Shown: piece after piece, positions 9,401-29,376 of the stretch
How the letters are laid out: every line of letters begins with the position of its first letter
Numbering within the stretch: the stretch's first letter is position 1
Assembly (NCBI GenBank): GCA_900177435.1
Contig: FXAI01000001.1
Span: 42,039 to 106,038 of the forward strand
From: Alteromonadaceae bacterium Bs31
GTDB lineage: Bacteria > Pseudomonadota > Gammaproteobacteria > Pseudomonadales > Cellvibrionaceae
Reading direction: 5' to 3'
Length of the DNA stretch: 64,000 nt
Notes under the pieces: model-generated
What the model was told of the DNA's origin: nothing
Databases searched by the model: none
The model's input: only the letters and a program-made list of their open reading frames with translations
Made by a program: the position numbers and the translations under genes

Positions 9401-12622
<3,222 letters not shown>

Positions 12623-22759: not shown

Positions 22760-22844
22760 GCCCAAGTGGTGGAATTGGTAGACACGCTATCTTGAGGGGG
22801 TAGTGGCGTAAGCCGTGCCGGTTCAAGTCCGGCCTTGGGCACCA
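22760..22844 (+). tRNA. tRNA-Leu(GAG)
   Basis: The 85-nt sequence folds as a class II tRNA. The acceptor GCCCAAG pairs with CTTGGGC, followed by the encoded ACCA end. The anticodon stem CTATC/GGTAG closes loop TTGAGGG with anticodon GAG. A short variable arm and T arm (GCCGG-TTCAAGT-CCGGC) follow. It lies 28 bp after secG. Confidence 0.97.
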
Positions 22845-23418
22845 TCATAAGAAGGCTCTCCATTAGGAGAGCCTTTTTTTATTCAAGGCCGGACTACGTC
22901 CGTGTTCGCTCGCCACATCCGTGTGGCTCGGGCTTTCAGCCCGACTACGTCGCGGCTAATCGGCAGTCCTGCCGATTAGTGGGCACCATCATAAGAAGGC
23001 TCTCCATTAGGAGAGCCTTTTTTTATTCAAGGCCGGACTACATCCGTGTTCGCTCGCCACATCCGTGTGGCTCGGGCTTTCAGCCCGACTCAGTCGCGGC
23101 TAATCGGCAGTCCTGCCGATTAGTGGGCACCGTCATAGAGAGGCTCTCAATACGGAGAGCCTTTTTTTATTCAAGGCCGGACTACGCCCGTGTTCGCTCG
23201 CCATACCCATGTGGCTCGGACTTTCAGCCCGACTGCGTCGCGGCTACTCGTCAACCCTACCGGTTGGTGGGCACCATCTTAAGACGTCTCTCCATTCTGA
23301 CAGTACTTTTGATATTTAAGGCGTGACTGCATTGGGTTTTACTTGTTTCCTTTTTGTGACTCGAGCCTTCAACCTGACTTCGTCTCAGTTGACTGGCAAT
23401 CTTGACGAACTAGTGAGC
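22837..23418. repeat. 144-bp hairpin-rich tandem array starting at the tRNA-Leu 3' end
   Basis: Units begin at 22837, 22981, 23125 and 23269, each opening with GGGCACC, which in the first unit is the tRNA 3' end. The spacing is exactly 144 bp. Units 1 and 2 differ at about three positions, unit 3 is clearly diverged, and unit 4 is only just recognisable. Each complete unit is a chain of hairpins: the terminator GGCTCTCC/GGAGAGCC, CGGAC-tac-GTCCG, CCACA-tccg-TGTGG, CGGGC-tttca-GCCCG and CTAATCGGCA-gtcc-TGCCGATTAG. An open frame runs through it with a 48-residue period but looks like a by-product. Confidence 0.92.
22852..22880 (+). terminator. terminator of the secG/tRNA-Leu transcript
   Basis: A 10-bp perfect stem AAGGCTCTCC (22852-22861) / GGAGAGCCTT (22866-22875) with loop ATTA is followed by a T-tract. 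It is also the first hairpin of each 144-bp repeat unit, so later copies of the terminator exist near 22996 and 23140. Confidence 0.9.
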
Positions 23419-24234: not shown

Positions 24235-27200
24235 ATGAATAAAAAATTACTTCTCAGTTCTGCAGTTGCTGCTGCTTTGGCCTTGCCGGCAGTCAGCAGC
24301 TATGCAGAACTCATCGCCTTTCCCGGCGCGGAGGGCTACGGCAAAGTGGCCTCGGGTGGTCGCGGCGGCGCGGTCTACGAGGTCACAACCCTTAACGCTT
24401 CCGGTTCCGGTAGCCTTGGCGAGGCGCTCAGTGCATCTGGCCCTCGTACCGTTGTTTTTAAGGTGGGCGGCACCATCACAGGCAATTTTTCAATTAATAA
24501 TGATGACATCACCATTGCCGGTCAAACTGCTCCCGGTGATGGTATCGCCATTAATGGCCACCTTACGGTTGCGGCAGATAACGTTATCATTCGTTACCTG
24601 CGCGTGAGGGGAACGGGCAGTGGCGATACCATTTCCAATAATAAAAACAGCCCCAACCGTTATCAGGTGTATGACCATATCTCGACCAACTGGAGTAGCG
24701 ATGAGGTCTTTTCCATTTACTTCAATGAGTATGTGACGATTCAATACTCGATGATTACCGAAGCCAATTCCAGTGACCACAAGTTTGGCGGTATTTGGGG
24801 TAATAATTACTCCACTTATCACCATAATTTATTCGCTCATAACGAGGATCGCGTTGCGCGATTTGCTTCTGGCTCTGGGTATAACGACTTTAGAAACAAT
24901 GTGATTTACAACTGGAGCGGTCTTGGCACCTATGGTTGTGAGAACCAGCAGGTAGGTGACAGCGCCCATGTTTTTTGTAACGCAAACGTTGTGGCTAACT
25001 ACTACAAGCCGGGCCCGGCAACGCCAAATAATCAGCGGGCAATTACACCCACCACACGCAACGGTGCCAGTGACTACGGTAACTGGTATGTGGCAGAGAA
25101 CTACTTCTACGGCAACGATGCCGCCACAGAAGATAACTGGTTAGCGGTTGTCCCCCACTATTGGGAAAAAATTGATAAGGACCTAGACGCAATTCCGGGC
25201 CTGAGAGTGGATACACCCTCGGAGTATATGCCGATTAATCAACAAACCGCGGTGGATGCTTACCAAACGGTGTTGGCCGATGTTGGTACCAGCCTGCCTC
25301 GCCGGGACGCGCTGGATGCGCGCATCATTGAAGAGGTGCGCACCGGTACCGCCATTAATGGTAACGGGCATATCAGTAGCCCAGGCCCCTTGCCCGATTT
25401 GCAGGGTGGCACAGCACCGAGAGACTCGGATCATGACGGCATGCCGGACGATTGGGAAATAGCCAAGGGGCTGAACCCCAATGATGCCAGCGACAGAAAC
25501 AATACCGATAGTGTTGGCTATACCATGCTGGAGAAGTATTTAAACAGCATCGACAGCTTTCCGGATTCTGGTGAGCCTTCCTCTAGCTCCAGTTCGTCAA
25601 GCTCAAGTTCCAGTTCATCCAGTTCTTCAGGTTCGAGTACGACGTCAAGCTCCAGTTCTTCAAGCAGCTCAAGTTCCTCAAGTTCTTCAAGTTCTTCTAG
25701 TAGTTCCAGCAGCTCCGGCTCATCTAGCAACAGCTCAAGCGGTAGCGGCGTGGCGCAGACCATCCAAGAAGACGATGCAGGGTTTGTCGGTGTGGATGGT
25801 TCGATAGATTCAAACAACGGCGGCTTTACCGGCAGCGGTTTTGCCAATACCGACAATGCCAATGGCAACGGTATTGATTGGGTGGTATCGGTACCCAGCA
25901 GCGCCAGCTATACCTTTAATGTTCGTTATGCCAACGGCTCGTCTACCAACCGCTCGGCTAAAGTCGAGGTGGATGGCAGCACTGTAGTGGGCAATTGGGA
26001 TTATCCCGGCACAGGCAGTTGGGCAAGCTGGCAAACAAGCTCCATAGTGGTACCGCTTTCCAGCGGCACACACAGTATTCGCCTGGAAGCCACTAACGGT
26101 TCTGGTCTTGCGAATGTGGATTATCTGGAAGTGATCGGCGGTACAGCCCCGAGTAGTTCATCCTCCAGTAGCAGTTCATCGTCAAGCTCTTCCAGTAGTT
26201 CGTCCAGCTCTTCTTCCAGCTCTTCTTCCAGTAGCTCGTCTAGCAGCTCTAGCAGTAGTTCATCAAGCAGTTCTTCCAGCAGCAGCTCCAGTTCGTCTTC
26301 CAGCAGCTCGTCCTCGAGCTCCAGTTCATCGGGTGGCGGAATAGAGCTCACGCTCCAGGAAGATGAGGCCGGTTTCTGTGATGTGGATGGCTCTGTGGAT
26401 TCCAATAACAGTGGCTTTACCGGCAGCGGCTTTGCCAATACCCAAAATGCCACCGGTAATGGCATAAGCTGGGCGGTGTATGTGCCAGATGGCGGCAGCT
26501 ATGCCCTTGAATGGCGTTATGCCAACGGTTCAAGTACCAACCGCATGGGAGATGTGCTGGTTAATGGTACGAACAAAGACACCGTGGATTTCGACTCCAC
26601 CGGTGCCTGGACCAGTTGGACAGCGGTGAGCACCGTACTTGAATTGGACGCGGGCAATAACCTGATTGAGCTAATTGCTACCACCAGTGGCGGCTTGGCG
26701 AATATCGATACAATGACACTGATTGGAAACGATCTTTCTGTTGGGTCTTGTAGTGATATTCCCGGCACTTCCAGTTCGTCTTCCAGCAGTTCCAGTTCCA
26801 GTTCCAGCAGTTCTACATCCAGTAGCTCTTCTAGCAGTTCTTCTAGCAGTTCTTCTAGTAGTTCTTCTAGTAGTTCTTCTAGTAGTTCTTCTAGTAGTTC
26901 TTCTAGTAGTTCCAGCAGCAGCTCTTCAAGTAGTTCATCGTCCAGCTCCTCTAGTAGCTCATCTAGCAGCTCTTCTAGTTCGGGTTCAGTCGGCATGGGT
27001 GATCGCACTCGTGTCATCGTTACCACTGACGGCGAGATTGATGACCAGGCTTCATTGGTAAGGTTTCTCCTTTATTCCAATGAATTTGATGTTGAAGGTA
27101 TCGTAAAAACGAGCTCGCAATATCATTGGCAAGGTCATAATTGGGCGGGTGATTATTGGGAAGAGCCAATATATGAGGCCTATGCAGAGTCCTACTCCAA

Positions 27201-28350
27201 CCTTATTCAACACGACGCACGTTACCCAACGCTCGAGTACTTAGAGTCTGTCACCAAGCTTGGCAATGTTTCCGATAATGGTGAGATGACGGTGGAGACA
27301 GAGGGTTCACAGCATATTGCTGATGTGCTTTTGGATGAAAGTGACAGCCGGCCTATTTGGTTACAAGCCTGGGGTGGCCCCAACAGTATTGCCCGAGCAT
27401 TGAAAACCATTGAAGAGCAACACCCGGAAAAAATGGCGTCTGTGGCCCAAAAGATTCGCTTTTATTTCATCTGGGAGCAGGACAACACTTTTCAAAAATA
27501 CATCCGCAATACTTGGGCAAAGCCCTACAATATTCCAACCATTATTTCTGATCAGTTTATTACCTTCGGCTATTGGTGGCAGCGCTGGGATATGCCCGCA
27601 GAGCCAGCGTCCTACTTCAGTGAGTCTTGGATGCAGGAAAATATCTTTAAAAGCGATAACTCTTTAATTTCGTATTACAAAGAGAGAACTAAAGACAAGC
27701 TCGGCGGAAGAGAAGCGTTTATGGGCGAAGGCGATTCACCCTCCTTTATCCATCAAATACCCACGGGCTTGCGCAGCACAGAGTCTCCTGACTGGGGCGG
27801 ATGGGGCGGTCGCTACGTGCATGTACGGGAAAATACATGGCTGGATAAGGTGCCGGTTGATAATTACCAATACCCTTCCGGCCGCTGGTATACCAGCACC
27901 GGCTGGGGGCGCCAAAATTATGATAGTGCTGAGCAGAGCAAGTTGGAGGAGTACTTTAAGCCAATTACACGTTGGGTTGGTGCCATCCAAAACGACTTTG
28001 CGGCTCGCGTAGATTGGAGTGATAAATCTTACGATGAAGCCAATCACCAGCCCAATGCCCAAGTTGTCGGAACGCTGAACCGGCAGGTCTCGCCTGGTGA
28101 AACGGTTCTGCTTGATGCTTCGCCGACCACAGACCCGGACGGAGACCAGCTCACTTATCGCTGGTGGCACTACCAGGAAGCGGACTCTGCCACTACAGAC
28201 GTTTCCATTGCCAATGCCAGTGTTATGAGTGGTGCGAGTTTTACTGTTCCCAATGAGCCCGGTAAGCAGGTGCACATCGTTCTTGAGGTAGAAGATAACG
28301 GAACGCCATCGCTCACTCGTTATCAACGGATTGTTTTCACTATTCGCTAG
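24235..28350 (+). CDS. secreted multimodular pectate lyase: PL1-like, two CBM35-like, Sde182-type C-terminus
   Basis: The ATG at 24235 (after GAGGATGG) gives 1371 residues. A signal peptide ends near residue 24 (SSYA). Residues about 25-400 are a parallel beta-helix pectate lyase of PL1 type (PGAEGYGKVASGGRGG, FKVGGTITG, TIAGQTAPGDGI). A thrombospondin-3-like calcium segment DSDHDGMPDDWE follows. Three poly-serine linkers (449-506, 640-699, 846-916) separate two CBM35-like modules (507-637 and about 700-830) from the C-terminal part. That part starts near 920 with TTDGEIDDQAS, a nucleoside-hydrolase-like motif of the kind found in Saccharophagus Sde182 proteins, and ends with an Ig/PKD-like domain (about 1265-1371). 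It is expected to be exported by Sec. Pectin cleavage is well supported; the role of the Sde182-like part is unknown. Confidence 0.9.
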   Translation: MNKKLLLSSAVAAALALPAVSSYAELIAFPGAEGYGKVASGGRGGAVYEVTTLNASGSGSLGEALSASGPRTVVFKVGGTITGNFSINNDDITIAGQTAPGDGIAINGHLTVAADNVIIRYLRVRGTGSGDTISNNKNSPNRYQVYDHISTNWSSDEVFSIYFNEYVTIQYSMITEANSSDHKFGGIWGNNYSTYHHNLFAHNEDRVARFASGSGYNDFRNNVIYNWSGLGTYGCENQQVGDSAHVFCNANVVANYYKPGPATPNNQRAITPTTRNGASDYGNWYVAENYFYGNDAATEDNWLAVVPHYWEKIDKDLDAIPGLRVDTPSEYMPINQQTAVDAYQTVLADVGTSLPRRDALDARIIEEVRTGTAINGNGHISSPGPLPDLQGGTAPRDSDHDGMPDDWEIAKGLNPNDASDRNNTDSVGYTMLEKYLNSIDSFPDSGEPSSSSSSSSSSSSSSSSSGSSTTSSSSSSSSSSSSSSSSSSSSSSSSGSSSNSSSGSGVAQTIQEDDAGFVGVDGSIDSNNGGFTGSGFANTDNANGNGIDWVVSVPSSASYTFNVRYANGSSTNRSAKVEVDGSTVVGNWDYPGTGSWASWQTSSIVVPLSSGTHSIRLEATNGSGLANVDYLEVIGGTAPSSSSSSSSSSSSSSSSSSSSSSSSSSSSSSSSSSSSSSSSSSSSSSSSSSSSSSSSSSSSGGGIELTLQEDEAGFCDVDGSVDSNNSGFTGSGFANTQNATGNGISWAVYVPDGGSYALEWRYANGSSTNRMGDVLVNGTNKDTVDFDSTGAWTSWTAVSTVLELDAGNNLIELIATTSGGLANIDTMTLIGNDLSVGSCSDIPGTSSSSSSSSSSSSSSSTSSSSSSSSSSSSSSSSSSSSSSSSSSSSSSSSSSSSSSSSSSSSSSSSSSSSSSSGSVGMGDRTRVIVTTDGEIDDQASLVRFLLYSNEFDVEGIVKTSSQYHWQGHNWAGDYWEEPIYEAYAESYSNLIQHDARYPTLEYLESVTKLGNVSDNGEMTVETEGSQHIADVLLDESDSRPIWLQAWGGPNSIARALKTIEEQHPEKMASVAQKIRFYFIWEQDNTFQKYIRNTWAKPYNIPTIISDQFITFGYWWQRWDMPAEPASYFSESWMQENIFKSDNSLISYYKERTKDKLGGREAFMGEGDSPSFIHQIPTGLRSTESPDWGGWGGRYVHVRENTWLDKVPVDNYQYPSGRWYTSTGWGRQNYDSAEQSKLEEYFKPITRWVGAIQNDFAARVDWSDKSYDEANHQPNAQVVGTLNRQVSPGETVLLDASPTTDPDGDQLTYRWWHYQEADSATTDVSIANASVMSGASFTVPNEPGKQVHIVLEVEDNGTPSLTRYQRIVFTIR
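25579..25752 (+). repeat. poly-serine linker 1 of the pectate lyase
   Basis: This stretch encodes 58 residues, almost all serine, with a few Gly, Thr and Asn. It separates the catalytic region from the first CBM35-like module. Codons mix AGC/AGT and TCN, so it is not a single slippage tract. Confidence 0.95.
26152..26331 (+). repeat. poly-serine linker 2 of the pectate lyase
   Basis: Sixty uninterrupted serine codons lie between the two CBM35-like modules, with mixed AGY and TCN codons. Such linkers are a hallmark of Saccharophagus, Teredinibacter and Cellvibrio secreted enzymes. Confidence 0.95.
26770..26982 (+). repeat. poly-serine linker 3 with 12-bp tandem repeats
   Basis: Seventy-one codons, all serine except one Thr, join the second CBM35-like module to the Sde182-type region. 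The middle (about 26840-26910) consists of near-perfect tandem copies of the 12-mer AGTTCTTCTAGT, unlike linkers 1 and 2, which points to recent slippage expansion. Confidence 0.95.

Positions 28351-29299: not shown

Positions 29300-29376
<77 letters not shown>

Follow-up and report, generated by a model that had tools for sequence, protein, structure and literature searches.

Why should a secreted pectate lyase carry, in one and the same chain, a domain related to nucleoside hydrolases? The question is raised by a gene in a 64,000-nucleotide stretch of DNA (the window) from Alteromonadaceae bacterium Bs31 (assembly GCA_900177435.1, contig FXAI01000001.1, positions 42,039 to 106,038), the product of which joins a lyase of polysaccharide lyase family 1, subfamily 2 (PL1_2), to two CBM35-type carbohydrate-binding modules and a C-terminal region of the Sde182 (DUF1593) type. 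The answer proposed here, to which we assign a probability of roughly 0.53, is that the gene encodes a secreted two-enzyme protein for apiose-decorated (apiogalacturonan-like) pectin, in which the Sde182 domain would serve as an apiose-removing furanosidase. The initial annotation had left the choice between a second catalytic activity and an unusual binding module, and the first option now looks better supported, by the metal aspartates, the fold, the gene neighbourhood and the repeated fusions.

Domain Layout and the Lyase Half

The reading frame, taken from its ATG, divides as listed below; an upstream GTG start would lengthen the 1371-residue protein by 52 residues.

24235..28350, + strand: whole gene, secreted multimodular protein of 1371 residues (open reading frame from ATG; Pfam)
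24235..24306, + strand: signal peptide, residues 1-24 (by eye from the translation)
24304..25500, + strand: PL1_2-type pectate lyase, residues ~24-422 (match to 9buj, alignment, likeness to locus L019)
25423..25488, + strand: TSP3/EF-hand-like calcium segment, residues 397-418, at the lyase C-terminus (PF18884, below cut-off)
25579..25749, + strand: polyserine linker 1, residues 449-505
25759..26151, + strand: CBM35-type module 1, residues ~509-639 (match to 2w87/2w46; Pfam)
26152..26340, + strand: polyserine linker 2, residues 640-702
26338..26751, + strand: CBM35-type module 2, residues ~702-839 (Pfam CBM_35 at 720-828; extent from a tblastn match)
26764..26988, + strand: polyserine linker 3, residues 844-918
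26995..28023, + strand: nucleoside-hydrolase-like domain of Sde182 type, proposed furanosidase (Pfam 926-1194; fold match to ~1263)
27028..27045, + strand: metal-site motif DGEIDD, with Asp932, Asp936 and Asp937 (conservation; profile alignment)
27733..27735, + strand: Asp1167 in an EGDSP motif, putative fourth metal ligand (invariant in 159/159 domains)
28102..28341, + strand: Sde0182_C beta-sandwich domain, residues 1290-1369 (96.6 bits; strands in the model)

Pfam and matches to solved structures bear out the parts that the initial annotation had named, i.e., a lyase, two CBM35-like modules and an Sde182-type C-terminal region. Sde182_NH-like (PF07632) is matched at residues 926-1194 with 223.4 bits against a cut-off of 26.8, and the binding modules are matched by CBM_6 (78.5 bits, cut-off 28.9) and CBM_35 (42.7 bits, cut-off 28), each in two stretches, as well as by CBM_35_2 (42.1 bits, cut-off 23). 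Module 1 matches the solved structures 2w87 and 2w46, which we take to be those of CBM35 modules, with E ~2e-32. The linkers, of 57, 63 and 75 residues, are nearly pure serine. What had been described as an Ig/PKD-like end is indeed a C-terminal domain, but it is the Sde0182_C domain (PF21027), matched at residues 1290-1369 with 96.6 bits against a cut-off of 27.

The best solved relative of the lyase half is the PL1_2 lyase 9buj, matched by residues 24-383 with E 3.4e-36, and in the alignment Arg206 is the counterpart of the 9buj arginine at chain position 220, provided that chain positions equal the numbering in the paper; the second arginine of the PfPL1 paper (235) could not be mapped onto the window lyase. 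No Pfam lyase model is listed for the protein at E up to 1, nor is the PF13204 catalytic domain, and the NCBIfam model PelZ gives 84 bits on the lyase half, far under its cut-off of 840. PfPL1 (9buj), Dickeya PelZ and BT_4115/4116/4119 are placed in PL1 subfamily 2, and PfPL1 is described as acting on apiogalacturonan, that is, homogalacturonan with O3-linked beta-D-apiofuranose or short apiose chains (available text of PMC11229556). The same source gives PfPL1 a C-terminal pseudo-EF-hand. Since the TSP3-like segment at residues 397-418 (PF18884, 13.7 bits, cut-off 25) is located where PfPL1 has this element, it is counted as part of the lyase; the calcium-type segment noticed at the outset is thus present, below cut-off, but a separate calcium domain was set aside.

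Fold and Metal Site of the Sde182 Domain

A predicted model and a solved relative give the Sde182 domain the nucleoside-hydrolase fold, and the window domain shares its three-dimensional fold with 2yhg, although it is only 9-13% identical to nucleoside hydrolases (e.g., 2mas and 3g5i). When the nucleoside-hydrolase part of a 159-row family alignment is compared with 12 nucleoside-hydrolase sequences (16 were sought and 4 not found by pattern) by hhalign, with realignment off and with three different first sequences, the E values are 5.6e-5, 5.9e-5 and 6.5e-6 at probabilities of 66, 65 and 85; the whole-length alignment gives no match to nucleoside hydrolases by hhalign (probability 0.1). A sequence-only search of the PDB with the family profile returns 2yhg and no nucleoside hydrolase, together with weak matches to the C-terminal sandwich (collagenase PKD, cadherin and others). 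For the window region, PF01156 is absent from the matches listed at E up to 10, in a search where the HMMER filters drop most weak matches, and three api-type relatives elsewhere match the N-terminal half of PF01156 below cut-off.

In the profile alignment, Asp932, Asp936 and Asp937 fall in register with the DxxxDD motif of nucleoside hydrolases. The aspartates of the DGEIDD motif are kept in 155-156 of the 159 aligned Sde182 domains, and the C-terminal aspartate of column D249 (Asp1167 in the window protein) is invariant; its position and its GD(S/T)P motif suggest that it may be the counterpart of nucleoside-hydrolase Asp242. We assume for these aspartates the metal-ligand roles that they have in nucleoside hydrolases. 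Between the window domain and its paralogue, the ratio of nonsynonymous to synonymous substitution rates (dN/dS) is ~0.08 in the nucleoside-hydrolase part. The possibility, raised at the outset, that the metal-binding aspartates had been lost is thus not borne out: they are retained, on a fold that is that of a nucleoside hydrolase.

Two observations on relatives stand apart from these. At L061:5756-7012 (loci bear our numbers) lies an Sde182 relative with V and G replacing both metal aspartates of the DD pair, which could serve as a natural test of a form without catalysis. In Gracilibacillus (genome of L086; G185:C1:312244-313888), two proteins of ~315 residues match PF01156 and, more weakly, PF07632, and sit with Sde182 within an apiose-type cluster.

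Fusions to Galacturonan-Cutting Enzymes

The search for lyase-Sde182 fusions elsewhere was successful. A metagenome-assembled genome (MAG) of Sedimentisphaerales (L019) carries a PL1_2-Sde182 fusion, co-directional with importer, transketolase and kinase genes inside an apiose-type operon, and a Bacteroidia MAG (L025) carries the reverse order, Sde182-PL1_2, as well as a GH88/105-Sde182 fusion. There is a PL1-Sde182 fusion in Rhodopirellula (L015) and a PF09492/PL10-Sde182-Sde182 fusion in a Planctomycetales MAG (L017). The window fusion and those of planctomycetes are placed apart in both the Sde182 tree and the lyase tree, and the window and L019 lyases are united in 0% of 200 bootstrap trees. 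The window-type domain has thus been fused repeatedly to different galacturonan-cutting enzymes, and from this it would follow that it shares the substrate of its partners. The Pfam scan behind these assignments covered nine long Sde182/PL1_2 reading frames and left out further ones in L017, L040, L047, L053, L054, L059 and L072. At L037:12782-15340, one 852-residue reading frame has PL1_2 followed by BNR_2, and Sde182 and transketolase genes belong to the same cluster.

An Apiose-Type Operon in the Source Genome

The genome from which the window comes has nine Sde182 matches. On its contig C39 (L011 and L012), the operon begins with a TIM-barrel isomerase and the gene of a DeoR regulator; then come, in this order, a transketolase split into two halves, an FGGY kinase, a ribose-type ABC importer, an Sde182 gene, GH88/105 (PF07470), an apiosidase-like PF13204 gene, a transporter that we labelled as one of the major facilitator superfamily, a rhamnosidase, two further Sde182 genes and PL1. 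The GH and PL numbers attached to Pfam families, such as the GH140 type for PF13204, are our assumption. The isomerase scores 457 bits against 3ktc, which we take to be the D-apiose isomerase of Pectobacterium. Six proteins of the operon share 33-49% identity with their counterparts in the D-apiose cluster of E. coli SE15 (transketolase halves 49% and 42%, kinase 36%, importer parts 33-42%), and strains that bear such a cluster are reported to have grown on D-apiose (accessible part of PMC13001218).

Near two further window-type genes on C39 (L010) there are a PL1 gene and a gene for a PF03211 lyase. A gene with 55% identity to the window module occurs in a second genome of the genus, where its immediate neighbours are an operon-type Sde182 gene on one side and GH88/105 on the other, next to importer genes. 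Three other copies may be recorded here. The nearest paralogue (L009:7509-9332 and 9845-11662) is a second copy of the Sde182 module of the window, with 86.6% identical DNA and a lipoprotein-like N-terminus (by eye), without a lyase and beside a CBM35-pectinesterase. A GH10-CBM5-CBM35-Sde182 fusion occurs in the same genome (L014:6492-10148; CBM_35 there below cut-off), and in the second genus genome (L140:5791-7559) an Sde182 part beside GH10 is split over two frames, by a broken gene or a sequencing error.

Neighbourhoods and Association Tests

Of 542 loci found in the scan of genome contigs for Sde182, the best 80 were used; they come from Bacteroidota, Planctomycetota, Verrucomicrobiota, Actinomycetota, Bacillota, Pseudomonadota and others, and divide into 49 of the nearest type (six of them from a sister clade of the window clade) and 31 more distant ones. 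Among the 49, PL1_2 is present in 24, at least two apiose-operon genes in 10 and GH88/105 in 6, so that 29 have one or another of these. Recurrent neighbours are the importer ATPase (10 loci), binding protein (10) and permease (9), AraC (8), the transketolase halves (7 and 6), DeoR (6), PF13204 (5) and the kinase (5); a small protein between binding protein and ATPase, DUF2291-like by position, recurs in 6. Among the 31 distant loci, at least two apiose-operon genes occur in 9, the isomerase in 5 and PL1_2 in 1. In the clustering of neighbours, Sde182, PL1_2 and GH88/105 fall into one group because of their fusions. Some further families, the largest of them in 24 loci, lie by their coordinates antisense to the genes for Sde182, the lyase, GH88/105 and the importer, and were set aside.

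The 49 nearest-type loci yielded no ApsI-like gene. A fucose-isomerase-C protein (e.g., L026:3-947) occurs in seven of them, six with apiose-type genes, and is a candidate for an alternative apiose isomerase.

The association was then counted against controls in 40 genomes, which we chose from the 80 loci after seeing them, so that the ratios are biased. AptB-like transketolase genes (at least 40% identical to that of the source genome) are no more than 15 kb away from Sde182 in 23 of 31 cases, other transketolase homologues in 0 of 84, and L-arabinose isomerase, which served as control for a different pentose of pectin, in 0 of 35. For PL1_2 lyases of at least 50% identity the count is 21 of 26, for weaker lyases 7 of 40. 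PF13204 genes were tabulated for 70 cases, the first 70 of 84 rows, and 11 of these are within 15 kb; among the 14 weaker at least one (G159:C15) is near Sde182. The Sde182 places used were 141, among the matches listed, with nine weak or fragment rows left out; 115 of 116 transketolase rows and 66 of 67 PL1_2 rows were used, the second fragment of one gene (in G167 and G155, respectively) being omitted in each case, and all 35 rows for L-arabinose isomerase. Across the 40 genomes there are 1 to 9 Sde182 genes per genome, and the Sde182/DUF1593 family occurs in at least six bacterial phyla.

A second sample consists of 247 genomes of Bacteroidota, the phylum of L026, drawn regardless of neighbourhood. 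Sde182 is found in 24. An AptB-like gene (E up to 1e-56) is present in 4, each of which also has Sde182 (p 7e-5); when the centre genome is left out, this holds for 3 of 3 (p 7e-4). In this sample the transketolase goes with Sde182.

Eleven plasmid records have Sde182 and 243 have the isomerase; seven and three of them, respectively, were opened, one record being in both counts. On a Croceibacterium plasmid, within a pectin island, the isomerase (82% identical) immediately precedes an Sde182 gene.

Proposed Mechanism

The proposed chemistry starts from the cis-2,3-diol of the furanose apiose, since nucleoside hydrolases bind such a diol through Ca2+. In what we infer of catalysis, substrate, CBM ligand and metal, the PL1_2 lyase would cut the galacturonan backbone, the two CBM35 modules would hold the cut pectin, and the metal-dependent Sde182 domain (the metal probably being Ca2+) would remove beta-D-apiofuranosyl units, which would clear the backbone and free apiose; joined in one protein, all of them would act on the same polymer. 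By analogy with nucleoside hydrolases, a metal on Asp932, Asp936, Asp937 and Asp1167 would chelate the furanose cis-2,3-diol, an Asp-activated water might attack C1, and Glu1165 could be the acid, which is a guess. That the Sde182 domain is an enzyme rather than a binder we consider likely, and, given an enzyme, that apiose is the sugar cut likelier still. The wider claim is that Sde182/DUF1593 is a new metal-dependent, exo-acting furanosidase family on the nucleoside-hydrolase fold, with the window-type clade a beta-D-apiosidase, an N-ribosidase fold turned O-glycosidase and repeatedly fused to galacturonan-cutting enzymes; for this we see even odds.

The gene neighbourhoods and fusions give Sde182 a specific and testable substrate. 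If the proposal is true, an apiosidase on a nucleoside-hydrolase fold would be a new type of glycosidase and a tool enzyme, and it would account for the clearing of galacturonan that bears apiose side chains. Apiose is described as bearing the boron bridges of rhamnogalacturonan II (RG-II) and as decorating seagrass pectin (available texts of PMC10952590 and PMC11229556, respectively).

Evidence to the Contrary and Rival Explanations

Several findings weigh against an apiose-removing enzyme. We know of no activity for the Sde182 family; in a literature search that lacked most subscription journals, no published activity for Sde182/DUF1593 and no paper linking apiose with nucleoside hydrolases was found. 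The domain family itself is already known. The window gene stands alone between two tRNA genes, and the PF13204 gene already in the C39 operon could itself cleave apiose. Sde182 is also fused to GH10 (source genome), DUF6807 (L034), malectin (L076) and DUF5060 with PF12904 (L040). Neither PL1_2, GH88/105 nor two apiose-operon genes are seen in the fetched stretch of 20 of the 49 nearest-type loci (L015 and L017, themselves lyase fusions, are among these) and of 21 of the 31 distant ones. The biased choice of the 40 genomes must be counted here too, as must the Bacteroidota sample, in which 20 of the 24 Sde182-bearing genomes are without an AptB-like gene at E 1e-56 and the two genes are close together in only two of the four genomes that have both, being apart in the other two.

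The plasmids add to this. Of the seven opened records with Sde182, which hold distant members, one has the isomerase; in the others the neighbours are GH115 in Catenovulum, beta-L-arabinofuranosidase-like genes in Spirosoma, rhamnosidase, GH1 and a beta-glucoside transporter in Selenomonas, and glucuronate genes with a pectate lyase in Croceicoccus, and nothing relevant was found near Sde182 on the Pantoea and Adhaeribacter plasmids. Conversely, a Rhizobium plasmid carries a complete apiose-type operon (isomerase, transketolase, kinase and importer) with no Sde182 gene annotated nearby, and a Pantoea isomerase homologue stands in an unrelated setting. Because of these differing plasmid neighbourhoods, the apiose reading fits the window clade and some others, not the whole family.

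One rival explanation is that the Sde182 domain has a nucleoside-hydrolase fold without catalytic activity, which binds furanose (apiose) in a metal-dependent way and thereby directs the lyase to pectin rich in apiose. A review, in the part accessible (PMC8910321), gives Sde_0182 as inactive on purine and pyrimidine nucleosides and puts forward the hypothesis of a furanose sugar-interacting module, which speaks against the enzyme proposed here as well; the domain is joined to lyases and CBMs in the manner of many binding modules; and the commonly conserved His of alignment column 223 (117 of 159 domains) is Asp in the window copy and in its paralogue, which likewise counts against an enzyme. 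A dead domain is nevertheless unlikely: the metal quartet is kept almost without exception, one cluster often holds several Sde182 genes, and most Sde182 frames, which were not scanned individually, are ~430-600 residues long and leave little room for a second enzyme domain.

Equally doubtful is a furanosidase for some other sugar, for which L-arabinofuranosyl units, aceric acid or a linkage specific to RG-II come to mind, or else a glycosidase acting on a substrate that simply occurs together with apiose. The PF13204 gene within the same operon and the GH10 fusion in the source genome favour it, as do distant members beside GH115, beta-L-arabinofuranosidase-like, GH1 with rhamnosidase, and glucuronate genes. 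Since distant members differ in neighbours and one is fused to GH10, specificity probably varies across the family, but the counts of 0/35 for L-arabinose isomerase against 23/31 for AptB-like genes, from the biased set of 40 genomes, point away from arabinose.

A ribosidase or nucleosidase acting on extracellular nucleosides or nucleotides, which the fold and metal motif would suggest, is highly improbable in view of the reported inactivity of Sde_0182, the pectin and apiose gene context and the absence of PF01156 from the matches listed for the window region.

Genomic Position

The gene that encodes the proposed two-enzyme protein lies between two tRNA genes:

22760-22844, + strand: tRNA-Leu(gag), left anchor of the insertion site
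29300-29376, + strand: tRNA-Met(cat), right anchor of the insertion site

In three of seven other genomes of the genus these tRNAs are 0.3-0.6 kb apart, upstream of rimP; in the remaining four, no tRNA-Leu was found within the 0.8-1.1 kb fetched upstream of tRNA-Met. The window gene looks like an insertion with both ends anchored. Misassembly across the polyserine linkers is unlikely, because the flanking tRNAs belong together in at least three genomes of the genus. The Sde182 family has a patchy distribution: 3 of the 145 genomes from the order, and 2 of the 8 from the genus, have a match above cut-off. Judged by its nearest named relative, L016, the genus is probably Cellvibrio. Directly after tRNA-Leu, at window positions 22836-23310, there are three repeat copies with 144-nucleotide spacing and palindromes, the others being 95% and 84% identical to the first.

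Comparison with Known Systems

The window domain differs from the inosine-uridine nucleoside hydrolases (PF01156) in being attached to pectin enzymes, and PF01156 is not listed for it. The C-terminal region of Sde_0182 from Saccharophagus degradans (2yhg; PF07632 and PF21027) has the longer motif TTDMGADPDD where the window has TTDGEIDD, and the partners in the window are a PL1_2 lyase and two CBM35 modules; the term "cellulose-binding" rests on the name of this founding protein, and cellulose binding was set aside. For the apiosidase-like PF13204 proteins (GH140 type) the proposed sugar is the same as for Sde182, and the window protein is without a PF13204 match. The window lyase resembles the PL1_2 lyases in sequence (PfPL1 closely, PelZ weakly) and in its terminal calcium segment; PfPL1, however, was produced as a lyase of residues 29-464 (available text of PMC11229556), whereas the window lyase is fused to CBM35 modules and Sde182. 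The planctomycete fusion of L019 has the same order, PL1_2 then Sde182, and is 58% identical in Sde182 and 49% in the lyase, but it has no CBM35 by Pfam, no polyserine and a separate place in both trees.

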